Assembly: GCA_902633855.1 (NCBI GenBank)
Contig: CACPHU010000002.1
Location: 115,001-160,855 of the forward strand
From: an uncultured OCS116 cluster bacterium
Lineage (GTDB): Bacteria; Pseudomonadota; Alphaproteobacteria; Rhizobiales; TMED25
Reading direction: 5' to 3'
Length of the DNA: 45,855 bases
The notes below the pieces were generated by a model. It saw only the letters and a list, made by a program, of their open reading frames with translations, made no database searches and was not told the origin of the DNA. Positions 29,711 through 43,245 of this stretch are shown here, piece by piece; positions within the stretch are counted from its first letter, which is position 1, and the number at the start of each line of letters is the position of its first letter. A program made the translations under genes and the position numbers.

Positions 29711-29787
29711 GGGGGCGTAGCTCAGTAGGATAGAGCACCAGATTCCTAATCTGGGGGTCACAGGTTCAAATCCTGTCGTCCTCACCA
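29711..29787 (+). tRNA. tRNA-Arg (CCT anticodon)
   Basis: A complete 77-base tRNA. The acceptor stem GGGGGCG pairs with CGTCCTC with two G-T wobbles. The D arm is GCTC/GAGC, and the anticodon arm is CCAGA-TTCCTAA-TCTGG with anticodon CCT, reading AGG. The T arm is ACAGG-TTCAAAT-CCTGT, and the CCA end is encoded. No group I intron interrupts the anticodon loop, unlike some alphaproteobacterial tRNA-Arg(CCT) genes. The 3' end faces the phosphonate locus, and a decayed copy of its 3' half lies at 41775-41824, so this gene is the likely attachment site of an island. Confidence 0.97.
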
Positions 29788-30012
29788 TATTCCTCTGATA
29801 CCTTTAAGCAGTTTTCCCTTTGTCACCTTTCGTTTCGATGACATTACTTGTTCTACTCTACTGATTCTATATTATTGCAGAATCCTTGTAAAATGCTTCA
29901 TTTTCGACCCAAATTACACACCAATTACATAAATATTACATTTTTACGATTCCTCTGTAACCATTGGTGAACAACGTTCTTGGGGGTGTAAAGTAAAGGT
30001 ATATACTATTGT

Positions 30013-30057
30013 TTGTGGATCAGGAGGTCCTTGGCTCGAATCCAAGCAGTGGTACCA
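30013..30057 (+). pseudogene. 3' half of a tRNA-His (anticodon loop to CCA)
   Basis: This 45-base stretch fits canonical tRNA positions 32-76 exactly. It has a seven-base loop TTGTGGA with anticodon GTG, stem half TCAGG, variable loop AGGTC, T arm CTTGG-CTCGAAT-CCAAG, acceptor half CAGTGGT, discriminator A and CCA. The T54 position is C, a mutation unlikely in a working gene. Nothing upstream pairs to make the D arm and the 5' anticodon stem, so it is not an intact tRNA. A73 without an extra G fits alphaproteobacterial tRNA-His. The break in the anticodon loop is where many tRNA-targeting integrases cross over, so it is probably a remnant attachment site. Confidence 0.75.
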
Positions 30058-30150: not shown

Positions 30151-31341
30151 TTACTTTTTTGGTAATGATTTGAAATACTTATATTTCAAAAGATAGCAAA
30201 TAAGAAGACCAATTATGCTCGATAGAATTATAAAGATTATTACAAAATCGTAGTTGCTATTTGTCCAGATTAAAGAACCAATCCAAGGCCCACATGACAA
30301 ACCTATCGCATAGAATACAGATACATATCCGAATTTTTGTCCGAAGTCACTCATTCCTAGTACATCTTTTGATATTAAGGGTAATATAATTGACGTAATC
30401 CCATAAGCTGACGCCTCCAGTAGGATAAATATAAATGCAAGTGTTGGTGATATATGCGTTACATACAAAAACAGGAGAGAAATTACTGTCATGTAAAAGA
30501 TGTAAAACAGAGAATTTGTATCACTAATTTTCTCTCCAAAAAATAAAATTATCATTCTGCCAACAACTTGAAAAGGGCCAAATAAAGATGCAATTATGAT
30601 TGCCATTTTAAACTCTAACCCTTTTTCAAGCAGAAGAGGAATAATATGACTCACCAACATTTGATGGTTAAGGGCAATAAGGAAAAACGGTAAAGATAGT
30701 AATAAAAGCTTACTATCGATTGGTAGAAAAATTTTATGATTATTTTGCAATTTTTTCGGCACTTCAACTATGACGTAATTTTTCATACCTGCATATAGCA
30801 TGGGAGTACCGATAATTATTATTGATATACCAATTATCATAATTGCAAGTTTCCAACCATGTGTTGATGCAAAATATGTCATGATCGGAAAGGTGATAGT
30901 ACTGGCAAAACCCGCGATTAATGTTATAATTATAATCGTTCTTTTTGTGTCTTTTTTCTCGGCCATAGTAATTATGGAGAAGACCATATTGTAAGTGCAT
31001 CCGGCAGCAAAAAAATTGACAGATATCCATCCTGAAAGAAATACAATGTATAATTCTGCTGCATAGCTCAAATAAAGAAGAGATAAACCAATCATGATTG
31101 GGCATATCAATATTAAAATTAACCCATAGCCCCTATCGATTAACCTCCCATAAAATGGAAAAGCAAAAGCCTGAACGAATAATGATAGGCTAAACGCGAA
31201 TGTAAGATTATTTTTTGAGATACTTAGAGTATCCAACCAAAAATTTAATAATGCAGGAAACAGGTAATATGACGCACTATAAAACAATGTAACGGCGACT
31301 CCTGTACATATCGCCGCTATTGGCACTGACGAAATTAACAT
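30151..31341 (-). CDS. Major facilitator superfamily transporter
   Basis: A 396-residue membrane protein with about twelve hydrophobic segments in two halves of six. The loop between segments 2 and 3 reads YGRLIDRGYG, the MFS motif A region (G-x-x-x-D-R). The substrate cannot be read from the sequence; the closest general look is that of the monocarboxylate/oxalate-formate class. It is the last gene of the leftward run phnD-phnC-phnE-methyltransferase-MFS, 36 bases after the methyltransferase, with a terminator after it. Membership of that operon suggests a role in phosphonate handling, perhaps export of a product or import of a related compound. That is inference only. Confidence 0.85.
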   Translation of the reverse strand: MLISSVPIAAICTGVAVTLFYSASYYLFPALLNFWLDTLSISKNNLTFAFSLSLFVQAFAFPFYGRLIDRGYGLILILICPIMIGLSLLYLSYAAELYIVFLSGWISVNFFAAGCTYNMVFSIITMAEKKDTKRTIIIITLIAGFASTITFPIMTYFASTHGWKLAIMIIGISIIIIGTPMLYAGMKNYVIVEVPKKLQNNHKIFLPIDSKLLLLSLPFFLIALNHQMLVSHIIPLLLEKGLEFKMAIIIASLFGPFQVVGRMIILFFGEKISDTNSLFYIFYMTVISLLFLYVTHISPTLAFIFILLEASAYGITSIILPLISKDVLGMSDFGQKFGYVSVFYAIGLSCGPWIGSLIWTNSNYDFVIIFIILSSIIGLLICYLLKYKYFKSLPKK

Positions 31342-31377
31342 TTTTATATTTTTAACAGTAATGGAAAATTAAGTATA

Positions 31378-32043
31378 CTATTTTAAAAATTTTGAAAATA
31401 TGTGCCAGTGATAGGAGTTTGGTTTTTTATGAGCAGTGTCCAGCATTTCATATATCTCAAAATCTTTAAAAAGATCCATAATATCGTGCTCATTTACATA
31501 ATAATGTGGGTGCCCAACCTCATGGCCCTGATCTTTTGTCCATGTATTTTCTGCTACTAATTCACCTTTCCCGTAGCCTACATTTTTTTTGGAGAGCATG
31601 CTTATTATTAAAAATCCTCCTGGACGCATTACTCTCTTGATTTCATTGATAGCATTAATCACCGACTCATGATTGCCATGGTATATTACATTAAATGATA
31701 CAATCGCATCAAATGAGTTTTCATCGTATGGTATGTTTGTAAATGATCCAATAAGAGTGTCTATATTTTTTAGATCGTATTCTGTGATCATTTCATTTAA
31801 GTAGGCGATGCCTGTTTCACTTGCATCAATGGCGGATACTTTAAAGCCAGCTTTGGCAAGTTCTAAGCTATGGCGTCCAATACCAGAACCCAAATCAAGA
31901 ATTTCTTTTACGCCATTATCTTTCAAATAGGATACCTTGCTCGTAATAAATGGTTCAGGTACCATCCAATCAGTCCTACCCCTCTCATCAGCCCAAACAT
32001 TGTTCCAGGCCTCATAGGCTGTTTCAAATTCGTTTTTCTTCAT
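31378..32043 (-). CDS. Class I SAM-dependent methyltransferase coupled to phnE
   Basis: A 221-residue methyltransferase. Motif I is EILDLGSGIGRHSLELAKAG (about 45-64), motif II is VSAIDAS, and the post-I region is FDAIVSFNVIYH (about 111-122), with MRPGGFLIISM as the beta-5 strand. The N-terminus WVADERGR-like region (WADERGRTDWMVPEP) and PHYYVNEHDI near the C-terminus look family specific. The ATG lies inside the end of phnE, with AAAGG upstream and a 20-base overlap, so its expression is tied to the transporter. It lacks the cysteine set of arsenite methyltransferases. The substrate is unknown. Confidence 0.85.
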   Translation of the reverse strand: MKKNEFETAYEAWNNVWADERGRTDWMVPEPFITSKVSYLKDNGVKEILDLGSGIGRHSLELAKAGFKVSAIDASETGIAYLNEMITEYDLKNIDTLIGSFTNIPYDENSFDAIVSFNVIYHGNHESVINAINEIKRVMRPGGFLIISMLSKKNVGYGKGELVAENTWTKDQGHEVGHPHYYVNEHDIMDLFKDFEIYEMLDTAHKKPNSYHWHIFSKFLK

Positions 32044-32911
32044 TTTGTGTAACCTTTCTTCTCAAATATTGACTAACTTGCTCTACAACAAAAATCAAAG
32101 CGAATATCATCCCTATAATCACCATCGCTCTGTCATATGCCATCCAATTAAAGAGGGCATTCAGACTCATACCGATTCCACCTGCTCCAACAAGCCCTAA
32201 AATAACAGATCCTCTGATTGCTTTTTCAAATGCAAAGAGTGAAGTTGTAATTAATCCAGGCATCGCAGCGGGTACGACAGCAGCAAAAGTTGCATCAAGC
32301 TTTGTTGCGCCGCAGCTTTCAAGTGCATCTGCAGGACTTTTATCAACATCTTCCATTTCTTCTGCAAAAAATCTTCCGCAAAATCCAATAGTATCAACCA
32401 TTATGGTCAATGTTCCTGCAAAAGCTCCTAAGCCAACAAGCATAACAAAAATTATGGCCCAAACAAGATCTGGAACAGTTCTAAATAATAATATTAATGC
32501 CTTTACTGTTTCTTGAACAAGTCTCATGGGACGAGAATTACCAAGCAAACCCTTAGATGATAATAATGCAAGTATGAAGCCAAATATTATACCAAGCAGT
32601 GTACCCGTAAATGCCATTTGGAAAGTTTCAATTAATTCCCGCGTATATCGAAACGTATCTTTCCAGGTTATGCTATGCTCATTTTCTCCGAGTATGCCAA
32701 TGGAAGGAAAGGCCTCACCCAAAAATCTTTTAAAATATTGCGTGCTATCGAGCAGACCTTCAAAGCTGAATTGTGAACCTTGGAATGACCAAATGACCAT
32801 TACAATCAAGGCCAAATAAATAAAATATCTAGTGATACTGATTTTCTTGTATCTTCGTGGTAAATTATTTAACTCTGATTTCTTATCGATATCTATTAGG
32901 CCATCAGTCAT
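32024..32911 (-). CDS. phnE: PhnE, phosphonate ABC transporter permease
   Basis: The membrane channel of a PhnCDE importer. The N-terminal 25 residues are polar, followed by about six membrane segments. FQMAFTGTLLGIIFGFILALLSS begins the core, RTVPDLVWAIIFVMLVGLGAFAG is a conserved block, and LESCGATKLDATFAAVVPAAMPG is the cytoplasmic EAA-type loop that contacts PhnC. Length is 295, close to other PhnE proteins. Only one phnE is present. It begins inside the last eight bases of phnC and runs 20 bases into the methyltransferase gene. Confidence 0.95.
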   Translation of the reverse strand: MTDGLIDIDKKSELNNLPRRYKKISITRYFIYLALIVMVIWSFQGSQFSFEGLLDSTQYFKRFLGEAFPSIGILGENEHSITWKDTFRYTRELIETFQMAFTGTLLGIIFGFILALLSSKGLLGNSRPMRLVQETVKALILLFRTVPDLVWAIIFVMLVGLGAFAGTLTIMVDTIGFCGRFFAEEMEDVDKSPADALESCGATKLDATFAAVVPAAMPGLITTSLFAFEKAIRGSVILGLVGAGGIGMSLNALFNWMAYDRAMVIIGMIFALIFVVEQVSQYLRRKVTQNEEKRI

Positions 32912-33665
32912 ATTCAGCCTGCAGAGTTTTTATTTCTATAGAGTTTGAGTCTTTAAAAAGACTCAATCGACCATTTTTTATTGCTAACACTTTGTTACCA
33001 TACTCAAGTGCGTGCTCAACATTATGTGAGGTGAATATTAGTGTTATATTTTTATTCTTACACAAATCATAAAAAAGGCTCATTACCTCGTTTGCTGCTA
33101 CTGGATCTAGACTTGCAACCGGTTCATCAGCCAATATCATATTAGGCTCTTGCATCAGCGCCCTTGCAATCGCAACTCTTTGTGATTGTCCGCCTGATAG
33201 TGTGTCTGCTCTCTGCAAGGCCAAATGAGATAAACTCACCATTTCTAATGCTTCCATAGCTTTTTTTCTAGTTCGATTACTCGCACTTATTTGTCCCCAA
33301 TTTCTTATCCCTGCCAGTGGAAATTTTGAAACATTGTGCAAGCGACCTATATCCCCATGAATTACATTTGTTAGAACTGATAATCTGGGTACAAGGTTAT
33401 GTTTTTGGAATACTACTCCGATGGATGAACGCATTCTTCTCAGTGCGCCCGTCCTGAATTTCAAGATCGGATCCCCGAATATGTTAATTGAACCTTGTGA
33501 TGGTTCAGTTATTCGAGTTAAGCATTTTAGTAAGGTTGATTTACCCGCACCGTTTGAGCCTATAATTGCTATTGACTCACCTACTCCTATTGTAAAGGAA
33601 ATATCCCTTAAAACTTCAAAATCAGCATATGATTTTGATAAGTGATTAACTTCAATTGCATTCAT
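32904..33665 (-). CDS. phnC: PhnC, phosphonate ABC transporter ATPase
   Basis: The ATPase that powers phosphonate import. Walker A is GSNGAGKSTLLK and the Q-loop is VFQKHNLVPRLS. The signature LSGGQSQRVAIARAL, Walker B MILADEPVASLDP and switch HNVEH are all present. I start at the ATG at 33665 (MNAIEVNHLSKSY), giving 253 residues. The longer frame from 33698 would run through a strong hairpin. The gap to phnD is occupied by that hairpin. It overlaps phnE by eight bases. Confidence 0.95.
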   Translation of the reverse strand: MNAIEVNHLSKSYADFEVLRDISFTIGVGESIAIIGSNGAGKSTLLKCLTRITEPSQGSINIFGDPILKFRTGALRRMRSSIGVVFQKHNLVPRLSVLTNVIHGDIGRLHNVSKFPLAGIRNWGQISASNRTRKKAMEALEMVSLSHLALQRADTLSGGQSQRVAIARALMQEPNMILADEPVASLDPVAANEVMSLFYDLCKNKNITLIFTSHNVEHALEYGNKVLAIKNGRLSLFKDSNSIEIKTLQAEYD

Positions 33666-33674
33666 TGTAAAATG

Positions 33675-33699
33675 TTTGGGCCGGTTTAACCGGCCCAAA
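33675..33699 (-). promoter_or_regulatory. GC-rich hairpin between phnD and phnC
   Basis: An inverted repeat with ten-base arms, TTTGGGCCGG and CCGGCCCAAA, around five bases. It is by far the most GC-rich element nearby in an AT-rich genome. It lies 12 bases after the phnD stop and 9 before the phnC start. No strong U run follows on the minus strand (AAACATTTT), so it is better read as an mRNA 3'-end stabiliser or partial attenuator for phnD than as a full terminator. Such a hairpin after the binding-protein gene lets it exceed the membrane subunits, as with malE. Confidence 0.75.
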
Positions 33700-33711
33700 T
33701 CCCATTTCTGT

Positions 33712-34596
33712 TTAGTCCATGATATCGAATTCAGGAAGGCCTGCTGTACGATACATATTTCTTACGACATCATAATCTGAGTCGTTCACTTCGAGCAATC
33801 TTGTGCCCTCATATTTATCGTTAGCCATTTCACCTTCATCATCGACCCCTGCTAGGATAGCAGCAATTAGTGCCTCTTCATTTTCGACTATTGCAGCTTT
33901 TATTCTAGCAATCTCTGAGTCAGAGATCGTACCATTAGCCATAAGCATATCGTAAGGCAAATCGCCTGATCGTGCTAAAACTTTATAGTCTCCGTTGCCG
34001 TTTGGCTCTTTTGATCGATCATATTTTATCCAAGAACTAACTTTAACGCCTATAGCTTGAGTGTCATCACGCACCAAACCTGCATGCTGTAGACTTTTCT
34101 TTGTATGAATGACTTTGATGTCGCTCATTGGATCTACACCATGGTCCATTAGCACTTGCATTGGGCAGAAATGACCGGACGTTGATCCCGGTCCAGAAAA
34201 TGAAACTGTTGTTCCTTTTAGATCTGTGACCTTAGTATAGCCGCTTGAATTTTTAACAACAATTCCACAGTAATAATCAGGTCTCGCGAGCCCAATCATT
34301 GCTTTTCCATCAGTAAGCTTTGATATGGCGACATACTCAGCTGGGCCAGTAATCGCAAAATCAACCCTATTTGATCTCATTGCTTCTGCTGTTGCTGTTT
34401 GATTTGCAACATCAAAAAATTCGAATGAATCGCCAGTTACGTCTGATAAAGCATCAATGAATGGCCCCCATTCTGAAATTAATGCATCCATACCTTGAAT
34501 ATCAGTAACCGCGATTTTGTAGTCTTTGGCATTTGCATTTATTGAAGTGACAGTCATCAACAAAAAAGCACAAAATCCCATTATAAATTTACGCAT
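33712..34596 (-). CDS. phnD: PhnD-type periplasmic phosphonate-binding protein
   Basis: The solute-binding subunit of the importer. A signal peptide occupies residues 1-23 (cleavage after NANA, before KDYK). The mature protein has the PhnD fold with FFDVANQTATAEAMRSNRVD, FAITGPAEYVAI and the ligand loop FSGPGSTSGHFCP, whose serine and threonine bind the phosphonate group in PhnD. Length is 294, somewhat shorter than E. coli PhnD. AAGGAG lies seven bases before the ATG. It is the first gene of the leftward operon and divergent from the DUF1045 gene. The preferred ligand is not known. Confidence 0.93.
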   Translation of the reverse strand: MRKFIMGFCAFLLMTVTSINANAKDYKIAVTDIQGMDALISEWGPFIDALSDVTGDSFEFFDVANQTATAEAMRSNRVDFAITGPAEYVAISKLTDGKAMIGLARPDYYCGIVVKNSSGYTKVTDLKGTTVSFSGPGSTSGHFCPMQVLMDHGVDPMSDIKVIHTKKSLQHAGLVRDDTQAIGVKVSSWIKYDRSKEPNGNGDYKVLARSGDLPYDMLMANGTISDSEIARIKAAIVENEEALIAAILAGVDDEGEMANDKYEGTRLLEVNDSDYDVVRNMYRTAGLPEFDIMD

Positions 34597-34851
34597 TTTC
34601 TTCTCCTTGAATTTTAAAGTTTAATTAGCTTTGTTTGACCAATGAAATAACTGTGAATTTATATCTTTACAGAATTGTTGAGAAAACTTTAAATATTTAT
34701 GACATTATTGGATTTAAGAAAATATCCACAATAAAAAAATTAAATACAGTTAAAATACATTTATCTTATCACTCACAAATAAATAAAATTATCTTAGATA
34801 AATTAGTACGTGATACAATTATGTAATAATTTACTCTTAGAAATGCTTTTA
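34597..34851. promoter_or_regulatory. Divergent phnD / DUF1045 intergenic region
   Basis: About 255 AT-rich bases between two divergent genes. On the minus strand near 34694-34711 ATGTCAT-AAAT-ATTTAAA has one good and one poor Pho-box half at the right spacing, about 100 bases before phnD. GATATAAAT lies about 20 bases downstream as a possible -10. No convincing gene is present; a 63-codon rightward frame at 34635-34826 has no ribosome site and looks accidental. Confidence 0.35.
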
Positions 34852-35547
34852 ATGAATAAAAAATACAACCGATTTGCGATATATTTTATGCCACAATCAG
34901 AAAGCTTATTTTATGATTTGGGCATACGTTGGTTTGGATGGGATCCATTGCGAGGGTCCGAGGTAAATGGATTACATAATAAGGGAACTGATGAGCACCT
35001 TTTAGTAATTGAAAAAGCACGCAAATACGGTCTTCATGCGACCCTCAAGGCACCATTTAGACTCAGAAAAGGTTGTGAACTAGATGATCTAATTTCTTTT
35101 TTTCAAGATACATGTACGCGTTATGATGGCTGCATCTTTAATAATATTTCAATTAAGAAAATTTCAGATTTTATCGCTATTACTCCAAATTCGGATACAA
35201 CCAAAATTCATTCACTTGCAGCAGATATTGTAAAAGAATTCGATCAATTTAGAGATGAACTTAACGAGTCAGACATCGAAAAGAGGAACTTATCGAGTTA
35301 TTCATTAAGACAAAAAGAATATTTCTACAGTTGGGGCTACCCGTATGTTTTTGAAGAATTCAAGTTTCATATGACGCTGGGTAAACTCTCGCATTCAAAA
35401 GATGGAACAGCCGAAGAAAAGATTTGTAATGAATACTTTCAAGAAATTATTTCAAAACCAATGAAAATAGATAATTTATGCCTGATGGGTGAAGATCAAA
35501 ATGGAATGTTTCATATACTTGAAAATACGATTATAAATTGCAAATAG
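34852..35547 (+). CDS. DUF1045 two-histidine (2H) phosphoesterase-like phosphonate protein
   Basis: A 231-residue protein of the DUF1045 family found in phn clusters. It has both motifs of the 2H phosphoesterase fold: H62-A-T64 in GLHATLKAPF and H173-M-T175 in FHMTLGKL. The N-terminus YNRFAIYFMPQSESLFYDLG is typical. 2H enzymes open cyclic phosphodiesters, and because no phnP is present this is the best candidate to hydrolyse 5-phosphoribosyl 1,2-cyclic phosphate. The ATG at 34852 is chosen over a GTG at 34810. It is transcribed against the rest of the locus and its last 17 bases overlap phnN. Confidence 0.88.
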   Translation: MNKKYNRFAIYFMPQSESLFYDLGIRWFGWDPLRGSEVNGLHNKGTDEHLLVIEKARKYGLHATLKAPFRLRKGCELDDLISFFQDTCTRYDGCIFNNISIKKISDFIAITPNSDTTKIHSLAADIVKEFDQFRDELNESDIEKRNLSSYSLRQKEYFYSWGYPYVFEEFKFHMTLGKLSHSKDGTAEEKICNEYFQEIISKPMKIDNLCLMGEDQNGMFHILENTIINCK

Positions 35548-36070
35548 CATCAACCAAACTTTGAATGCCAGCCTCAATTGTACCACTATTATCGACTATT
35601 ATAGCCTTCTCTGGAATTGCCAAATTTAAGTATTTTAGACGTCCCTCAATTTTTTCCTCACTCTCTCGACCCCTTTTTATGAGCCTATCTTTTACCTTAA
35701 GCTTACTGGCAGTAATCCATATAATATAAATATTTGGATACTTTGATTGGATCTCACTCAATGCCCTTCTTGATCCATTAAAAATAACGTCCAAGCCGTT
35801 TTGTATTTTTGCAAGATATTCATTTGAAATACCATAGTGTAGATCATTTGCGCTCCAGCTTAGCATGAAATTGTCATTGTGCATCATCTTGTCAAACGTG
35901 GCATTGTTGACAAAAATATGAGTCTCTGCATCCGCTGTATTTGGTCGTGTAATGTGCCTTGTTACAAAGACTTTCTTTGTCAGAATTTTTTTTGCACCTC
36001 TGATGAGAGTGTCTTTACCTACACCAGATGGTCCGACAACACATATCAGTTTGCCAGATACCTTAGTCAT
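35531..36070 (-). CDS. phnN: PhnN, ribose 1,5-bisphosphokinase
   Basis: PhnN converts ribose 1,5-bisphosphate to PRPP, feeding the product of phosphonate breakdown into nucleotide metabolism. It is a guanylate-kinase-fold protein with Walker A GPSGVGKDTLIRGA (about 13-26), and FVTRHITRPNTADAE is the GMP-kinase-like substrate block. Length is 179, close to E. coli PhnN. Its ATG overlaps the phnL stop by four bases (ATGA). The 3' end overlaps the convergent DUF1045 gene. Confidence 0.94.
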   Translation of the reverse strand: MTKVSGKLICVVGPSGVGKDTLIRGAKKILTKKVFVTRHITRPNTADAETHIFVNNATFDKMMHNDNFMLSWSANDLHYGISNEYLAKIQNGLDVIFNGSRRALSEIQSKYPNIYIIWITASKLKVKDRLIKRGRESEEKIEGRLKYLNLAIPEKAIIVDNSGTIEAGIQSLVDAICNL

Positions 36071-36735
36071 TTGAATGAATTAACATCTATTTCCCGATCA
36101 GCTATCTCATTGCGAATCATTTCGTCATGAAAAATACCAATGATCGTACATCCATTTTTTTTTAACTTGTCGATTAGAGTAATAACTTTCTCTATATTCT
36201 TATTATCCAAGCTTGCAGTAGGCTCATCAAGCAGAAAATATGGATAATTACAAATCATTGCACGAGCAATATTTATCCTTTGTTGTTCTCCACCCGAGAA
36301 CGTCAAGGGTGATAAATTCCAGAGTTTACGTGGTATATCAAGGAAATTTAAGAGTTCAGATGCTTGCGCCAATGCATCTTCTTTTTCAGATCCTAATTTT
36401 ATCAAAGAGTCCGATACAATATTCATTGTTGAAACCCGAGGAATAACTCTTAAGAATTGACTTATATAACCCATTTTATGGTTACGAATTCGAATTAGAT
36501 CTTGAAGATTAATTTTTGTAATATCAGTCTTATCAACTAATATTGAACCTTTTGAAGGTAGATAGTTACCATATATCATCTTCATCAATGTTGTTTTTCC
36601 TGAGCCAGATTTACCCGTAAAAGCAACGAGCTCTCCTCGATTTACTGTTAGATTAACATCTTTAAAAACGGTAATTTTGGCACTATTTTGAGTGTATAAC
36701 CTAAAGGATTTGGATATATCTTTTAATTCGATCAC
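36067..36735 (-). CDS. phnL: PhnL, C-P lyase ABC-type ATPase subunit
   Basis: PhnL is an ABC ATPase-like subunit of the C-P lyase complex, needed with PhnG, H and I for making ribose 1-phosphonate 5-triphosphate. Walker A is TGKSGSGKTTLMK, signature FSGGEQQRINIARAM and Walker B YFLLDEPTASLD. It follows phnK after two bases and overlaps phnN by four. There is no transporter membrane partner, consistent with an enzymatic, not transport, role. Length is 222. Confidence 0.95.
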   Translation of the reverse strand: MIELKDISKSFRLYTQNSAKITVFKDVNLTVNRGELVAFTGKSGSGKTTLMKMIYGNYLPSKGSILVDKTDITKINLQDLIRIRNHKMGYISQFLRVIPRVSTMNIVSDSLIKLGSEKEDALAQASELLNFLDIPRKLWNLSPLTFSGGEQQRINIARAMICNYPYFLLDEPTASLDNKNIEKVITLIDKLKKNGCTIIGIFHDEMIRNEIADREIDVNSFK

Positions 36736-36737
36736 GA

Positions 36738-37514
36738 CTACACCTGTATTATTGAGCTGACTAGCAATTGAGTATATGCGTGGTGAGGATCATCAAGAAC
36801 CTGATCCGTAATGCCCTGCTCAACGATATGGCCATCCTTCATAACAAGCACTCTATCGGCAAGCAAACGAACAACACCAAGATCATGCGTAACAATGACC
36901 GCAGCTATGTTTAATTCTTCCACTAATTTCTTTATTAAATCTAGAATCTTGGCTTGCACCGATACATCCAAACCACCTGTCGGCTCATCCATATAGATCA
37001 GTTTAGGCTCTGTAATAAGACATCTTGCAATCTGCAAACGCTGCTGCATACCGCCAGAAAAGTTTGATGGAAGTTCATCTATTCGGCTGGAGTCGATCTC
37101 TACTTTTTCAAGCCAGGCAGCTGCGGCCTCTCTAATATTACCATAGTGTCTATTTCCGATGGCCATAAGCTTCTCACCTATATTACCTCCAGCGCTTATA
37201 TTCATTCTTAGGCCATCTCTCGGATTTTGATGAATAAAAGACCAGTCCGTTCGCATCAGCTGTCTTAAATCAGGCTCACTAATATTACAGATATTTTGTA
37301 CATAATTATCATCACTTCGAAAAAATACTTCTCCTGAATCAGGCTTATAAAGGCCTGATGCGCATTTTAGAAGTGTGGTTTTACCCGAACCTGACTCACC
37401 CACAATTCCAACTATCTCACCTGGATAAACTTCAAGAGTGATTGAGCTACATGCAATAATATTGCCAAAACTTTTTGTAAGATTTGTAATTTTAATTATT
37501 TCATTCATATTCAT
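36738..37514 (-). CDS. phnK: PhnK, C-P lyase ABC-type ATPase subunit
   Basis: PhnK is the second ABC ATPase-like protein of the C-P lyase and binds the PhnGHIJ core through PhnJ. Walker A is GESGSGKTTLLK, the signature is FSGGMQQRLQIARCL and Walker B is LIYMDEPTGGLD. DWSFIHQNPRDGLRMNISAGGN is the characteristic PhnK region. Its start overlaps the phnJ stop by four bases (ATGA), and phnL follows after two. Length is 258, like E. coli. Confidence 0.95.
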   Translation of the reverse strand: MNMNEIIKITNLTKSFGNIIACSSITLEVYPGEIVGIVGESGSGKTTLLKCASGLYKPDSGEVFFRSDDNYVQNICNISEPDLRQLMRTDWSFIHQNPRDGLRMNISAGGNIGEKLMAIGNRHYGNIREAAAAWLEKVEIDSSRIDELPSNFSGGMQQRLQIARCLITEPKLIYMDEPTGGLDVSVQAKILDLIKKLVEELNIAAVIVTHDLGVVRLLADRVLVMKDGHIVEQGITDQVLDDPHHAYTQLLVSSIIQV

Positions 37515-38359
37515 GGATTGTATATTTTTTTCAGTAAATTATTATGGCAGTAATTGGTATCTGAACATACAAACATTCTGCCACCCGCATTATCAATAAT
37601 AATTTCATCGAGGTATGAGTCTGTCGCTCCGCATAATTGGCATACTGCGTTCGCTTTGGTTGCTTCAAAAGGATAATCCTCAAAATCGAGACTGATAACC
37701 TTTGTATATGGTGGAATTGCATAAATACGTTGTTCGCGCCCAGCACCGAATAGCTGTATAGCTGGATTATTATTCATTTTCGGATTATCAAATTTTGGTA
37801 TTGGAGATGGTGCAGATATATAATTGTCATCAACAAGAACAGGGTAATTGTATGATGTTGAAATGTGTCCATTTTTTGATATATCTTCATAAAGCTTTAG
37901 GTGCATTATACCATACTCTTTCAGGGCATGAATTTTTCGTGTTTCAAACTCACTTGGTTCCAAAAATCGAAACGGCTCGGGTGTGGGAACCTGATATACT
38001 AATATTTGCTTCTCGACTAGTGGGATCTCCGGAATTCTGTGCCGTGTCTGGATTATTGTTGCCTTATTAGTATCTTCAGTTGTTTGAACATTCGTAACAC
38101 GTTTAAAGAAATTTCTTATGGAAACTGCATTGGTTGTATCATCTGATCCTTGGTCTATAACCTTTAGAGTATCATCCTGTTTGATGCATGATGACGTAAC
38201 TTGTATACCGCCCGTTCCCCATCCATAAGGCATTGGCATCTCCCGAGATGAAAAAGGAACTTGATAACCAGGAATAGATAGGCCTTTAAGAATTGCTCTT
38301 CTTATTGTTTTCTTTGTCTGCTCATCCAGGTACGCAAAATTATATTTTAATTCGTCCAT
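37511..38359 (-). CDS. phnJ: PhnJ, C-P lyase radical SAM catalytic subunit
   Basis: PhnJ breaks the carbon-phosphorus bond by radical chemistry using a [4Fe-4S] cluster and S-adenosylmethionine. Cysteines C240, C243, C265 and C271 form CX2CX21CX5C, the same spacing as E. coli C241, C244, C266 and C272, and Gly31 in IPGYQVPF matches the glycyl-radical site G32. MPMPYGWGTGGIQVT and FNPKM-like DNPKMNN blocks are intact. The protein is 282 residues and looks fully active. It is two bases after phnI and overlaps phnK by four. Confidence 0.97.
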   Translation of the reverse strand: MDELKYNFAYLDEQTKKTIRRAILKGLSIPGYQVPFSSREMPMPYGWGTGGIQVTSSCIKQDDTLKVIDQGSDDTTNAVSIRNFFKRVTNVQTTEDTNKATIIQTRHRIPEIPLVEKQILVYQVPTPEPFRFLEPSEFETRKIHALKEYGIMHLKLYEDISKNGHISTSYNYPVLVDDNYISAPSPIPKFDNPKMNNNPAIQLFGAGREQRIYAIPPYTKVISLDFEDYPFEATKANAVCQLCGATDSYLDEIIIDNAGGRMFVCSDTNYCHNNLLKKIYNP

Positions 38360-38361
38360 AG

Positions 38362-39429
38362 TTAGTCTTTCATCTGTTGACTTCTAATTTTTCGAACAAG
38401 TTCTAGCTCAGATTGAAAATCAACGTAATGAGGAAGTTTGATGTGCTCAACGAAACCTGTGGATTGTATGTTATCACAGTGCGATATAACAAATTCCTCA
38501 TTTTGTGTTGGTACATTCTGATAAGACTCACCTAGCTCTTTCCATCTCAGTGCCCTGTCAACCAAAGCCATCGATATTGCCTTCCTTTCACATTGACCCA
38601 TCACCAATCCATATCCCCTTGTAAATTTAGCTAGTTCTTTTTTGCTTCCAGTAAACTGATTTATTGTTTCACACTCAGTTACCTCAATTTCAGCGACCGT
38701 TATGGTGATCTCAAGTTCTGGTATCTCCACATTAACTGCAACAAGCCCGATGCGAAGCTCTCCTATAAAAGCGTGCGTTCCTCCATAACCACGTTGAGTT
38801 GAATATGCGAGGCCAAGTAGGAAACCTTCGTCAGCCCTAGATAGAGCTTGAAGACGAGCAGCTCTTGTTGTGGGATATTGAATTGAAGACCTGGTTATAT
38901 CTATAGGCTCTTCTAAAGTATCAATCTGATCCTCAATGAGCCCTTCTTTGTTTAATAGGTCTAATATTTTCGGCATATCTAGATCTTCCGCTCTATCTGT
39001 TTCCGTGTCTATGACCAGATTTTTCGGACCTTTTAACCCATCTAATAATCGATGAGTGTAATCAAAAGTTGGGCCTAAATTTTGTCCACCCGGGATATCC
39101 TTGAAGGTCGCAGATATTCTCCTTTTGCATATCATTTTTGTTGTATTGATGGGCTTACTTGTCGCGAGACGTGGAAGAGTTGTTCTGAACGCCCGAATTA
39201 AAAAAATTGCTTCAATCAAATCACCTCGAGATTGCTTTAAGGCAAGCGCAGCAAGCTCACGGTCGAATAGAGATCCCTCTGAGATTATTCGGTCCACAGA
39301 TAAAGTAAGCTGTTCCGATAATTGACTTATTTTTATTTCAGATATCTTGGTATTACCACGTCTGATTTGCGCTAGCCAATCATGGGCATTTTTTATTGCC
39401 TTTTCACCACCTTTTACAGCCACATACAT
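38362..39429 (-). CDS. phnI: PhnI, C-P lyase nucleosidase/phosphonylation subunit
   Basis: PhnI acts with PhnG, H and L to swap adenine of ATP for the phosphonate, giving ribose 1-phosphonate 5-triphosphate. Recognisable blocks are MYVAVKGGEKAIKNAHDWLA at the start, GFLLGLAYSTQRGYGGTHAFIGELR and HCDNIQSTGFVEHIKLPHYVDFQSEL near the C-terminus. Length is 355, as in E. coli (354). It is two bases after phnH and two before phnJ, so the order G-H-I-J-K-L is unbroken. Confidence 0.96.
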   Translation of the reverse strand: MYVAVKGGEKAIKNAHDWLAQIRRGNTKISEIKISQLSEQLTLSVDRIISEGSLFDRELAALALKQSRGDLIEAIFLIRAFRTTLPRLATSKPINTTKMICKRRISATFKDIPGGQNLGPTFDYTHRLLDGLKGPKNLVIDTETDRAEDLDMPKILDLLNKEGLIEDQIDTLEEPIDITRSSIQYPTTRAARLQALSRADEGFLLGLAYSTQRGYGGTHAFIGELRIGLVAVNVEIPELEITITVAEIEVTECETINQFTGSKKELAKFTRGYGLVMGQCERKAISMALVDRALRWKELGESYQNVPTQNEEFVISHCDNIQSTGFVEHIKLPHYVDFQSELELVRKIRSQQMKD

Positions 39430-39431
39430 TA

Positions 39432-39989
39432 TTATTTGATCCCTATAACTTTTGTTGTTCGGTTGATAACCATAATTTTCTGGTCATTTGTAAAATAAAA
39501 ATCAAGACCGATAGGAAATTTATTATTATTTTCATTAAACAAATCGACCTCGGGTAACTTACATTTTTTTTTAAGCTTAATTCCGGGTCCTTGTATATAT
39601 ACAGGCCTGAAATTAACGTCTGATTGATCTACAATTAAGGTTGATGATCTATCTGGGTATTCTGCTGTACCAAGCTTAAAATTATCTACTTTCTTGAGCT
39701 CAGACCACTCTCCAATTGCAAAGTCACACATATCAGAAGCTGTGATTTTTGCCCCTGTATGGAATGTAATCCATCTTATAATCTCTTCTCTGTGATGGCT
39801 TTTGGCTAGATATATAGAATTTGTATAATCACAAAGAGTAAGAATGATGCTACCAGCTGCAGGTGATATACCATTCGGTACGTCACATCTTGTCAGCTCA
39901 AAAGTGCCACCAGGGTAGGCAACAGCGTTCATCAATTGACGAAAATTATCAGCACTATCTGTTGAAAAATTTTTAAATCCGATTTGCAT
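39432..39989 (-). CDS. phnH: PhnH, C-P lyase subunit
   Basis: PhnH is a structural subunit of the C-P lyase core (PhnG2H2I2J2). The blocks FRQLMNAVAYPGGTFEL and FHTGAKITA are characteristic, and GPGIKLKK lies near the C-terminus. The ATG at 39989 begins one base after the phnG stop and gives MQIGFKNF, 185 residues, matching the family. A longer frame from 40037 overlaps phnG by 47 bases and adds a lysine-rich extension not expected in PhnH. Confidence 0.92.
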   Translation of the reverse strand: MQIGFKNFSTDSADNFRQLMNAVAYPGGTFELTRCDVPNGISPAAGSIILTLCDYTNSIYLAKSHHREEIIRWITFHTGAKITASDMCDFAIGEWSELKKVDNFKLGTAEYPDRSSTLIVDQSDVNFRPVYIQGPGIKLKKKCKLPEVDLFNENNNKFPIGLDFYFTNDQKIMVINRTTKVIGIK

Positions 39990-39990
39990 T

Positions 39991-40458
39991 TTATTTATCT
40001 GCTTTCTGATTTTTTGTTCGCTGTGTGTCAAGAGCAAAAAAATCCACTCTTGTGCTTGCCATTTGATTTTTAATCAGGTCGATTTCTACATTTTTCTTCT
40101 TCTCGAGTTTTTGTATAATATTTTCCATAACAAGATTATAATGAAATGACTGAAGATGGGCATCGCAAAGCGCGGCGATTTTTGCTTTGTCAAAGCTTCT
40201 ACCTTGAACATACCCATAGCCCATACACTCATTGAGCAGTAATACACATTTTGTTATCGTTATTTCGCCAAAATTGAACTGGCTTCCTATTCCACCAATT
40301 CTACCCCTAACCATAACACTTGCATGCTCGGGCTTTTTTATCCACTCATATTTGTCAGCAAATTTTAAATCACTATATAAGCTGGATAGTTGACCATAGT
40401 CGGACTGGGATAATATGCTTAACCACTTTTTTCTTTTTTTTAAAAATTCACTTTTCAT
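39991..40458 (-). CDS. phnG: PhnG, C-P lyase subunit
   Basis: PhnG is a small core subunit of the C-P lyase complex, partner of PhnI. The protein starts with a basic helix and has MVRGRIGGIGSQFNFGEITIT (split by the family pattern G-x-x-F-N-x-G-E) and CMGYGYVQGRSFDKA, the PhnG hallmark. Length is 155, like E. coli. It is the first gene of the leftward phnG-N run, with a candidate Pho box and a TATAAT about 60 bases upstream. It is divergent from phnM. Confidence 0.94.
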   Translation of the reverse strand: MKSEFLKKRKKWLSILSQSDYGQLSSLYSDLKFADKYEWIKKPEHASVMVRGRIGGIGSQFNFGEITITKCVLLLNECMGYGYVQGRSFDKAKIAALCDAHLQSFHYNLVMENIIQKLEKKKNVEIDLIKNQMASTRVDFFALDTQRTKNQKADK

Positions 40459-40544: not shown

Positions 40545-40567
40545 ATATTAAGTTTGATTTGAATTAA
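40538..40567 (+). CDS. Nine-codon leader reading frame coupled to phnM
   Basis: A short open frame encodes MTNIKFDLN. AAGGA lies three to eight bases before its ATG, the best ribosome site in this gap, whereas phnM has none of its own. Its TAA overlaps the phnM ATG by one base (TAATG), the usual sign of translational coupling. The frame could set phnM level by re-initiation, or an in-frame change could have shortened phnM. No function is claimed for the peptide. Confidence 0.4.
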   Translation: MTNIKFDLN

Positions 40568-41757
40568 TGAAAAGTTTATCGAGTTATCAACACGAAAATA
40601 AGTGCTACCGGATAACATCAGAAAATATTTACAAAGGTGATAGCAGTCTATCGAGTGGTCATATTGTATTTGACTCGAATGGTATTCAAACAATTGACGA
40701 TGACAAATCTACCCATAATATAGAATTGAATATTGGTGATAGACTACTTTTACCCGGTATAATAGATCTCCATGGAGATTCATGGGAACGCACAATGATG
40801 CCACGTCCAAATATCTATTTTGACCCAAAGAAATCTCTCTTATCATTAGACAAAGAGCTGGCGTGTTCTGGGGTTACTACAGCTTACCTCGCTCAGGGTT
40901 ATAGCTGGGAAGGTCGAACAAGGTCACCTGAAGCTGCGGAAAATTTCCTAAAATTATTTAGTGAATATAAACACTTAATGCAAGCTGATGTTAGAGTTCA
41001 AATTAGACTCGAGACAGAACTTAAAAACAGCGCGGAAAAGATATGTCAATTAATCTCAGATCACAATATTGACTATTTAGCATTTAATAATCACATACCG
41101 CAGGCAAAACACCAAAGAGATAAAAGCCCATTAGATTTTGCAAATTGGGCTGAAAAAAGAGGAATAACCGTTGAAGAATTATCAAATATTGTGGATGCAT
41201 ACCTGGATAATGATAACAAAGAGACATCGATAAATACTGCGAAGGTTGCCGAGTTTCTAAAAAAGAGAGGTCTAACAATTGGATCTCATGACGATAAAAC
41301 AATCGATACTCGACAATATTATAGATCCCTTGGGGCTGATGTTTGCGAGTTTCCCGTTGTTAAAGAAGTTGCAGCAGATGCAAAAAACAATAACGAGACT
41401 ATAATTATGGGTGCACCTAATGTTGCTAGGGGTGGGAGCCATACAAATAACATTGCAGCCGAAGAATTGATAAGAGAAAACCTATGCGATGTACTGGTAT
41501 CTGATTACTATTTGCCCGCACTAATTCAAGCAGTTGAAGTAATCACTAAAAAAGAAATAATGCCATTTTGTGAGGCATGGAATCTTATCAGCTTAAACCC
41601 CGCGAAAGCCCTTAGGTTTTTTGACAGAGGTTTGATTAAAATAGGCAATCGTGCAGATCTTGTCATTGTCAATCCGGAGACTTTCGAAGTTGAAGCTACA
41701 ATTTCTAATGGATCTTTTACTTATTTAAGAGACTCTATAATTGCTTGCTTTCAATAA
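40567..41757 (+). CDS. phnM: PhnM, ribose 1-phosphonate 5-triphosphate diphosphatase
   Basis: PhnM removes pyrophosphate from ribose 1-phosphonate 5-triphosphate so PhnJ can act. It is an amidohydrolase-fold metal enzyme. LLLPGIIDLHGDSWERTMMPRP holds the H-x-D pair, SHDDKTIDT and MGAPNVARGGSHTNNIAAEEL are the later metal and substrate blocks, and SDYYLPALIQAV follows. The first motif is LHGDSWE, not the E. coli LHTDN, placing it in a distinct PhnM subgroup. Length is 396. It is divergent from phnG, ends 17 bases before the tRNA-Arg remnant and has no ribosome site of its own. Confidence 0.9.
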   Translation: MKSLSSYQHENKCYRITSENIYKGDSSLSSGHIVFDSNGIQTIDDDKSTHNIELNIGDRLLLPGIIDLHGDSWERTMMPRPNIYFDPKKSLLSLDKELACSGVTTAYLAQGYSWEGRTRSPEAAENFLKLFSEYKHLMQADVRVQIRLETELKNSAEKICQLISDHNIDYLAFNNHIPQAKHQRDKSPLDFANWAEKRGITVEELSNIVDAYLDNDNKETSINTAKVAEFLKKRGLTIGSHDDKTIDTRQYYRSLGADVCEFPVVKEVAADAKNNNETIIMGAPNVARGGSHTNNIAAEELIRENLCDVLVSDYYLPALIQAVEVITKKEIMPFCEAWNLISLNPAKALRFFDRGLIKIGNRADLVIVNPETFEVEATISNGSFTYLRDSIIACFQ

Positions 41758-41774
41758 AATAAATACTACCCGCT

Positions 41775-41824
41775 CCAGTTTCCTAATCTGGGGGCCATAG
41801 GTTCAGATACTGACTTCTTCATCA
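41775..41824 (+). pseudogene. Decayed 3' half of tRNA-Arg (CCT): right edge of the island
   Basis: These 50 bases match tRNA-Arg(CCT) from the anticodon stem (CCAG) to CCA in 41 positions, including the 15-base block TTCCTAATCTGGGGG. They lie in the same direction as the intact gene at 29711-29787. The D arm and 5' acceptor stem are absent, and the T stem and acceptor half carry mutations (for example ATCA for ACCA), so it cannot fold as a tRNA. This is what an island integrated at the anticodon loop leaves at its far end. It is strong evidence that 29.8-41.8 kb arrived as one unit. Confidence 0.85.
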
Positions 41825-41837
41825 CAATTGAGACAAT

Positions 41838-42077
41838 TTAAGTTTTATTTCTTTCCTCATTTTCAGCTTTCTCAATCCTTTCATTAACCTCTTTGACACC
41901 CATCTCAAAAAGCTTGTTGTATTCATCCTCGGTTCCCCTTTTTTTATGCCAGTCTCGCATAGTGAATACACCTGCAAAGTTCTTAAGTTTCCTATGCTCT
42001 TTTAGGAGGTTATAATACAAAATAGCTAGAGTTATCGCAATTATAAGAGTTACAAAAAATAGAAGGTTAATGTTCAT
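41838..42077 (-). CDS. Small membrane-anchored protein of unknown function
   Basis: A 79-residue protein with one N-terminal membrane segment (about residues 4-23, INLLFFVTLIIAITLAILYY). A charged cytoplasmic or periplasmic tail follows, rich in Lys and Glu, ending in ERIEKAENEERNKT, probably a coiled helix. I do not recognise the family. It is the last of a leftward group of small genes just outside the tRNA-Arg remnant, 25 bases after the next gene. Confidence 0.6.
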   Translation of the reverse strand: MNINLLFFVTLIIAITLAILYYNLLKEHRKLKNFAGVFTMRDWHKKRGTEDEYNKLFEMGVKEVNERIEKAENEERNKT

Positions 42078-42102
42078 AAGCGGCTACCCATACTCATATA
42101 AT

Positions 42103-42321
42103 TTATATTGGTCTCAATTCAAATATATAGAAGATTACAAAAAAATGAATGGAAACAAGAAAAAACATGAGCAGATATCGCACCAGAATTTTTAAGCTTT
42201 CGTTATTAACCCTATTCGCTGCATTTAATTCCAACCATTTCCAAACAGGCTTCATTAATAATCTTAAGTAAAAATAAGCAGCAGCTAATACGCCAATAAC
42301 AATTAAAATTCCACTTCCCAT
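42103..42321 (-). CDS. Small two-segment membrane protein of unknown function
   Basis: A 72-residue protein with two hydrophobic segments, about residues 3-20 and 48-68, separated by a basic loop (LKPVWKWLELNAANR). No family is recognised. It is in the same leftward direction as the neighbouring small genes, with 25 bases before the next start and 76 after the DUF4864 stop, so an operon is likely. Confidence 0.55.
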   Translation of the reverse strand: MGSGILIVIGVLAAAYFYLRLLMKPVWKWLELNAANRVNNESLKILVRYLLMFFLVSIHFFVIFYIFELRPI

Positions 42322-42397
42322 ATAGGAAGTTTAACAGATGGAATACTCAATGACAATGTTGGTTTTATTTACAATAATTTTTCAATTGAAGGGGTTG

Positions 42398-42811
42398 TTA
42401 AACACCCATGCTATCAGATCTATACCGCGTGACACCCGCAATTACCCATTCCCCATTGTAGTTATAGAGGGTGTATAGATAGTTATTTATTCTGTTATTA
42501 CCAGAAATGACGGTGACCATCTGGAATGCCATTTCGCCTTTAAGCTTCAGTCCTTCGAATGTATGTGACTTAGAATTCCAGATATCAGAATATCCATTTT
42601 TAACCATTTGACCGAAAATTTCAGCAGACGGATATTGTCTTTTAATCTCAGGTGAAGCATAGCTGTATGCAAGTGATAGGTTCTTCTCTTTAAATGCATT
42701 GAACTGTGATGTAATAACTTTTTCTATTTGAGGTCTAAATTCTTTTTCTGCCCCATATGAAATTGTGGTTAAAAAAAATAGAAGTATGGGTAAGTAAATA
42801 ATTTTTTTCAT
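42398..42811 (-). CDS. DUF4864 secreted protein
   Basis: A 137-residue protein with a signal peptide at residues 1-20 (ending SYGA) and the DUF4864 domain after it. The conserved features are IEKVITSQFNAFKEKNLSLAYSYASPEIK, the FGQMVKNGYSDIW segment and the C-terminal NGEWVIAGVTRYR. The fold is NTF2-like by family, and the protein should be periplasmic. Its function is not known. It lies upstream of the two small membrane-protein genes on the same strand. Confidence 0.82.
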   Translation of the reverse strand: MKKIIYLPILLFFLTTISYGAEKEFRPQIEKVITSQFNAFKEKNLSLAYSYASPEIKRQYPSAEIFGQMVKNGYSDIWNSKSHTFEGLKLKGEMAFQMVTVISGNNRINNYLYTLYNYNGEWVIAGVTRYRSDSMGV

Positions 42812-42966
42812 TTTGTGATTTTCTACAATAATTTATTATATAAACGATACTAGATCCGATATAGACCAACTCTTAATTATGAAGTGTTAGTAATATAAAA
42901 TTTTTCCCATATTTATTGGGATCTGAATGCTCTTTATAAAATTATGAATTAGTTTAGCGTGTAGAG

Positions 42967-43245
42967 TCAGTAACTATTATCTGGTCCGTGCTCAGCATTG
43001 TACAGCTCCAAATAGTAGTAATAATCTATTGGGTCTTCTGGTGGACCTAAAATATTACCTCCTCCTTTTATCCAAAAATCAACATCTTCTGATTTAAAAG
43101 GTTCATATATATACTCTTCTTCTTTAGGTAATTTTCTATCATGATCCCAAATATATAATGAACAGACTAACATTGCGATGACCAATACGCCCATTATGAT
43201 GTACTGATTTCTGGTATTCATATATTTTTGATAAAAGCCAGTCAT
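42967..43245 (-). CDS. Single-pass membrane protein, family unknown
   Basis: A 92-residue protein with one membrane segment (about residues 14-33, YIIMGVLVIAMLVCSLYIW). An acidic tail rich in Pro, Tyr and Asp follows, containing GGGNILGPPEDPIDYYYYLELY. The tail is unusual in its aromatic run. The start abuts the stop of the upstream 74-residue gene (TAA then ATG), so the two are coupled. No family is recognised. Confidence 0.55.
   Translation of the reverse strand: MTGFYQKYMNTRNQYIIMGVLVIAMLVCSLYIWDHDRKLPKEEEYIYEPFKSEDVDFWIKGGGNILGPPEDPIDYYYYLELYNAEHGPDNSY

Follow-up and report, generated by a model that had tools for sequence, protein, structure and literature searches.

tRNA genes with displaced fragments of themselves, tandem islands and crossovers in the anticodon loop are standard (PMC4383910). 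SGI1 is known to use a second integration site and to form tandem arrays (PMC2297512), and a complex tandem that combines tRNA-Ile2 and fis satellites has one type of attachment site at its termini and an unrelated one inside, an arrangement for which its authors suggested homologous recombination (PMC10111431, Figure 5F). Here, we describe a ~12-kb C-P lyase (phn) region, lying between tRNA-Arg(CCT) and a decayed tRNA-Arg 3' half, that also contains a displaced piece of tRNA-His. Like Islander-type islands, this phn island has a tRNA gene, a 3' fragment in the same orientation and cargo between them, and the anticodon loop is among the crossover positions recorded for that type; unlike them, it lacks an integrase gene and holds a second fragment from another tRNA (PMC4383910). 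It shares with the tRNA-Ile2/fis tandem one terminal attachment-site type and an unrelated internal one, but that tandem consists of phage satellites with integrases, whereas the phn island is a nutrient island of a marine alphaproteobacterium and has none (PMC10111431). Tycheposons and other tRNA-flanked flexible islands (PMC10872708, citing Prochlorococcus work) likewise place metabolic cargo beside a tRNA in streamlined plankton bacteria; Methylophilaceae tycheposons carry a tyrosine recombinase, and the phn island, having none, departs from the tycheposon arrangement of such a recombinase beside a tRNA with cargo. The HIMB59 phosphonate islands are similar in that only some marine alphaproteobacterial genomes contain the C-P lyase island, which has apparently been exchanged, but the study of them reports no tRNA at their borders and proposes homologous recombination (PMC10734472), whereas the borders of the phn island are a tRNA gene and a half-repeat. 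Islands of composite make-up whose attachment sites do not match have been described before (PMC10111431), and the present case is not a new kind.

The window, a stretch of 45,855 nucleotides (G000:C2:115001-160855) that reaches the contig end, belongs to a 1.17-Mb genome (G000; 73% complete) whose named relatives, identified via the flanking helicase gene, are OCS116-cluster/'Rhodobiaceae' marine alphaproteobacteria. The features of the island are collected in Table 1. The tRNA-His fragment (hereafter the His half) lies at the inner left edge of the island and is oriented like tRNA-Arg; 225 bp separate it from the end of that tRNA gene, and 93 bp from the end of the MFS gene.

Table 1. Positions of the phn island, its borders and its genes in the window
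Feature	Position	Strand	Basis
Intact tRNA-Arg(CCT), left island end (attL side)	29711..29787	+	ARAGORN; Rfam 70.5 bits
Non-coding left-end segment of the island, 225 bp	29788..30012	+	
His half, displaced 3' half of tRNA-His(GTG), nt 33-77, T54C at 30035	30013..30057	+	Genome match, ARAGORN
Island cargo, five genes	30151..34596	-	Pfam/NCBIfam
MFS transporter	30151-31341	-	Pfam/NCBIfam
Methyltransferase	31378-32043	-	Pfam/NCBIfam
phnE-like permease	32024-32911	-	Pfam/NCBIfam
phnC-like ATPase	32904-33698	-	Pfam/NCBIfam, phnC model below equivalog cut-off
Phosphonate-binding phnD-like protein	33712-34596	-	Pfam/NCBIfam, phnD model below equivalog cut-off
DUF1045 / 2'-5' RNA ligase-like phosphonate-cluster protein	34810..35547	+	Pfam/NCBIfam
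C-P lyase genes phnN, phnL, phnK, phnJ, phnI, phnH, phnG	35531..40458	-	PhnN just below cut-off
phnM	40567..41757	+	PRK15446 subfamily above cut-off; TIGR02318 phnM below cut-off
Decayed tRNA-Arg 3' half, right island end (attR side)	41772..41824	+	81% over 53 nt

The His half (TTGTGGATCAGGAGGTCCTTGGCTCGAATCCAAGCAGTGGTACCA; 45 nt, + strand) corresponds to nt 33-77 of the 77 nt of tRNA-His(GTG), from a cut in the anticodon loop to the CCA end. When up to 3 mismatches were allowed, a search of the whole genome (1.17 Mb) returned only one other match, with 1 mismatch, at G000:C4:83978-84022; these are the 3'-terminal 45 nt of a complete 77-nt tRNA-His(GTG) called by ARAGORN (G000:C4:83946-84022), the only tRNA-His among the 27 genes found in a tRNA scan of the genome. 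The reversed pattern, used as a control, gave zero matches, and a 45-nt match at one mismatch is far beyond what chance would give. The two sequences are identical at 44 of 45 bases, the sole difference being T54, the first T-loop base, which is C in the window. An earlier note, made from the letters of the window alone, had stated that the fragment fits a tRNA exactly: its length, its cut at the anticodon loop, A73 and CCA all stand, while exactness fails by this one base, and the intact gene of the genome has now been located and its 3' half matched. The case that the note had named as fatal to its reading, an intact tRNA with an unusual insertion, does not apply, since ARAGORN calls no tRNA at 30013-30057. 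Because the Rfam tRNA model reaches only 16.8 bits there, under the gathering score of 29, the His half does not qualify as an intact tRNA, and the same two results led us to reject a whole tRNA that had been split or had decayed. The 31 nt preceding the His half (29982-30012) start with GGGGGTGTA; this resembles the first bases of tRNA-Arg, GGGGGCGTA, and its distance from the half is roughly that within a tRNA. The resemblance is weak, and ~1.1% of window positions score as well.

In most genomes of the genus, tRNA-Arg(CCT) is orthologous but has different DNA after it, which makes its 3' side a hotspot. In G005, the site is free of the island and a c26 gene follows tRNA-Arg directly; altogether, the phn island is present in 3 of 14 family genomes, so that the word "fixed", which the earlier note had used for an element beside tRNA-Arg, was too strong. 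The G009 locus (L042:2630-3343) has a 590-bp insertion bounded by a 53-nt tRNA-Arg half, with one 130-aa ORF and no integrase. Members of this ORF family also follow tRNA-Arg in G010 and G002. In G000, Pfam matches across the genome place integrases at C2:130013 (outside the island), on C17 and on C4, and none within the phn island, the mobility of which we infer. No viral contig searched carried either tRNA half, and no His or Arg half was found near the integrases checked in G011 and G009. To the right of the island, window positions 41838-43245 hold small genes of families c1 and c4; c1 also lies directly after tRNA-His in G007 and G011, and c4 does so in G008, at 71-78% protein identity, which suggests that genes have been exchanged between the tRNA-Arg and tRNA-His sites or that an old rearrangement took place.

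The whole 12-kb structure recurs in a second genome, G001, in which the island together with the His half is 98% identical to that of G000, and because of this second occurrence misassembly is unlikely. The pairing of tRNA-Arg with a tRNA-Arg half around the island is real, and at the right end of the G001 island the tRNA-Arg half is perfect (50/50 nt). The G001 His half is decaying, with an extra change in the T-arm and a damaged acceptor/CCA end, and is therefore under no evident constraint. Between the Arg half and c1, G001 (L041) has an extra 362-aa ORF that is absent from G000, so the tRNA-Arg site has gained or lost DNA on its right side as well.

A third phn island, in the more distant species G003, is 95.5% identical to that of G000 at the DNA level over 11.7 kb and also lies at tRNA-Arg, while the core DNA of the two genomes is only 66-73% identical, which indicates that the island was recently transferred between species. 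The tRNA-Arg is the same one because the genes upstream of it (MOSC, CarD, FdxA, helicase) agree with those in the window. In G003, the His half is 38 nt long (nt 40-77, 92%), with several changes from tRNA-His, and lies at the left island edge just outside the MFS gene, 2.3 kb from tRNA-Arg and beyond three genes, one of them SnoaL-like; a tRNA-Arg half was not found to the right of the G003 island. Between G000/G001 and G003, the His halves disagree at 7 of 45 bases, and the DNA immediately to their right is also different. Because this divergence exceeds the 4.5% of the island, the halves may stem from separate events or may have recombined at the island edge.

Relatives also reveal what happens at tRNA-His itself. 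In G011, another species, the order is tRNA-His, two small genes (one SnoaL-like), a His half, a third small gene, c1 and c67, whereas in G007 c1 and c67 follow tRNA-His directly. By this gene order, the G011 layout is that of an insertion at tRNA-His with the displaced half at its end. In G004, tRNA-His and a decayed half before c1 are on two separate contigs, and this half probably also marks the end of a tRNA-His insertion as in G011. The His half in the window thus has the marks of a displaced attachment-site half: a tRNA 3' terminus, a start at a known crossover position (the anticodon-loop cut, which the earlier note had correctly taken as a sign of an attachment site; PMC4383910) and, in relatives, occurrence at the distal end of DNA inserted at tRNA-His, as judged from G011 and G007.

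DNA of the G011 tRNA-His island is found again at tRNA-Arg in G003. One match, which contains the SnoaL-like gene, covers 568 bp at 95.4% DNA identity (G003 181-747); the other, of 133 bp at 92.5% DNA identity (G003 2482-2613), spans the His half together with ~24 nt of its left flank and ~60 nt of its right flank. The SnoaL-like proteins of the two genomes are 99.2% identical, compared with 49-89% for seven other shared proteins. These matches support a transfer of DNA out of an insertion at tRNA-His and into the tRNA-Arg site, although the transfer step itself is inferred; because a His half arises only at tRNA-His, the direction of movement is from tRNA-His to tRNA-Arg. The suggestion in the earlier note of an element that once used tRNA-His and later came to lie beside tRNA-Arg gains support from this correspondence. 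The estimated contamination of G003 and G011 is 6-8%, although the contigs that hold these loci measure 467 and 384 kb. A search of the junction of the G011 SnoaL segment for a hidden tRNA half gave none. At the left end of the G000 island, positions 77-106 after the CCA are 87% identical (26/30 bases, E about 1e-5) to DNA at the same offset just after tRNA-His in G004, which fits related element ends at tRNA-Arg and tRNA-His; the whole 225-bp left segment has a counterpart within the family only in G001.

The earlier note had also raised the question of a further element beyond the intact tRNA-His of the genome, and there is one: in G000, tRNA-His is followed on C4 (L006:16024-19589) by ~3.6 kb of element DNA that extends to the contig end and contains a truncated tyrosine integrase. 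This element has several small ORFs, each preceded by a near-identical ~50-nt sequence containing CTATCAGATAG. The repeats are perhaps a shared promoter or leader; integron-like attachment sites were rejected for them because they precede the ORFs and look like a shared 5' leader. The tRNA-His loci of G000 and G011 also share a 123-aa protein of no known family (L006:17995-18366; L054) that is 97% identical between the two genomes, compared with 63-74% for the other proteins compared, which is a sign of recent transfer.

Based on these comparisons, we consider it likely that the 45 bases are an attachment-site scar from an insertion at tRNA-His, now a passenger in a composite phn island at tRNA-Arg. 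The observations on which the proposal builds are the Arg half-repeats, the layout of a displaced half at tRNA-His and, at tRNA-Arg, the DNA transplanted from the His locus. In the suggested sequence of events, an element inserting at the anticodon loop of tRNA-His would displace the tRNA-His 3' half to its own far end; this element and the phn cluster would then be joined side by side at tRNA-His, by nested integration or by homologous recombination between element ends; and the joined block would reach tRNA-Arg, the probable routes being homologous recombination between the ends of elements and entry into an element of the Arg type. The island would then spread between species by excising and reintegrating at tRNA-Arg with the help of an integrase acting in trans from elsewhere, and the His half would by now be functionless and decaying. 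Several observations count against this scenario: the left segment of G000 has a single short AT-rich match to the end of a tRNA-His element, the His halves of G000/G001 and G003 diverge more than the island does, the island contains no integrase, G003 shows no tRNA-Arg half on the right, and no genome carrying phn at tRNA-His turned up.

The main rival explanation, which we regard as rather unlikely, is non-cognate integration: a His-type element would have integrated into the anticodon loop of tRNA-Arg, generating an Arg-5'/His-3' hybrid, and a later Arg-type element would have restored tRNA-Arg and pushed the His half inward. Such events predict the observed order of tRNA-Arg, segment, His half, phn and Arg half, the 31 nt before the half would be the remains of the hybrid (GGGGGTGTA, cf. 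GGGGGCGTA), the anticodon stem-loops of the two tRNAs agree at 11 of 17 bases, and occupation of a second site by one island is documented for SGI1 (PMC2297512). However, the 7-nt loops (TTCCTAA and TTGTGGA) differ at 4 of 7 positions and agree at 3 only, the 5' resemblance is weak (~1.1% of background), and the core at the right end of the G001 island (GCTCCAGATT) is Arg-like. Tyrosine integrases generally require a matching overlap, which also counts against this explanation, as does the required stage without tRNA-Arg(CCT); a tRNA-Arg isoacceptor TCT, which could cover the loss of CCT, was not seen in the 73% complete G000 genome.

A small tRNA-His-type element could instead have inserted directly into a resident tRNA-Arg island at a His-like site, in which case its remains could be the 225 bp that separate tRNA-Arg from the half. 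We view this as distinctly unlikely, because it requires a pre-existing His-like site in the island and because the G003 half lies at the same island edge even though the left segment there is different and larger, which points to the half being part of that edge. That the half was kept for a function, for instance as a small RNA or as an attachment site for decoy or docking purposes, would accord with the single base by which the G000 copy differs from tRNA-His, but it is very improbable given the changed T-arm and damaged acceptor/CCA end of the G001 copy, the several changes in the G003 copy and a conservation no greater than that of the surroundings. tRNA pseudogene pieces do occur in genomes. 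Nevertheless, a chance or illegitimate duplication with no tie to integration is hardly credible for a 3' half that is cut at a known crossover position in the anticodon loop (PMC4383910), is oriented as tRNA-Arg, has a like half at the end of the tRNA-His insertion in G011 and probably in G004, and is matched between G003 and G011 together with both of its flanks.

Returning to the preferred reading of an attachment-site scar in a composite island, the locus preserves a readable trail of a phosphorus-scavenging island spreading among streamlined ocean bacteria: the same island lies at tRNA-Arg in species with ~66-73% core DNA identity and bears the scar of another tRNA. A tRNA-based integration of a phosphonate island is visible here, unlike in the HIMB59 study (PMC10734472), and the integration site by itself does not reveal the history of an island. 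More tentatively, the tRNA-Arg(CCT) and tRNA-His hotspots of this genus could draw on one common stock of element ends and of cargo islands lacking an integrase, both passing from one site to the other, a possibility we hold to be somewhat doubtful; if it is true, the target tRNA of an island can switch while its cargo stays unchanged.
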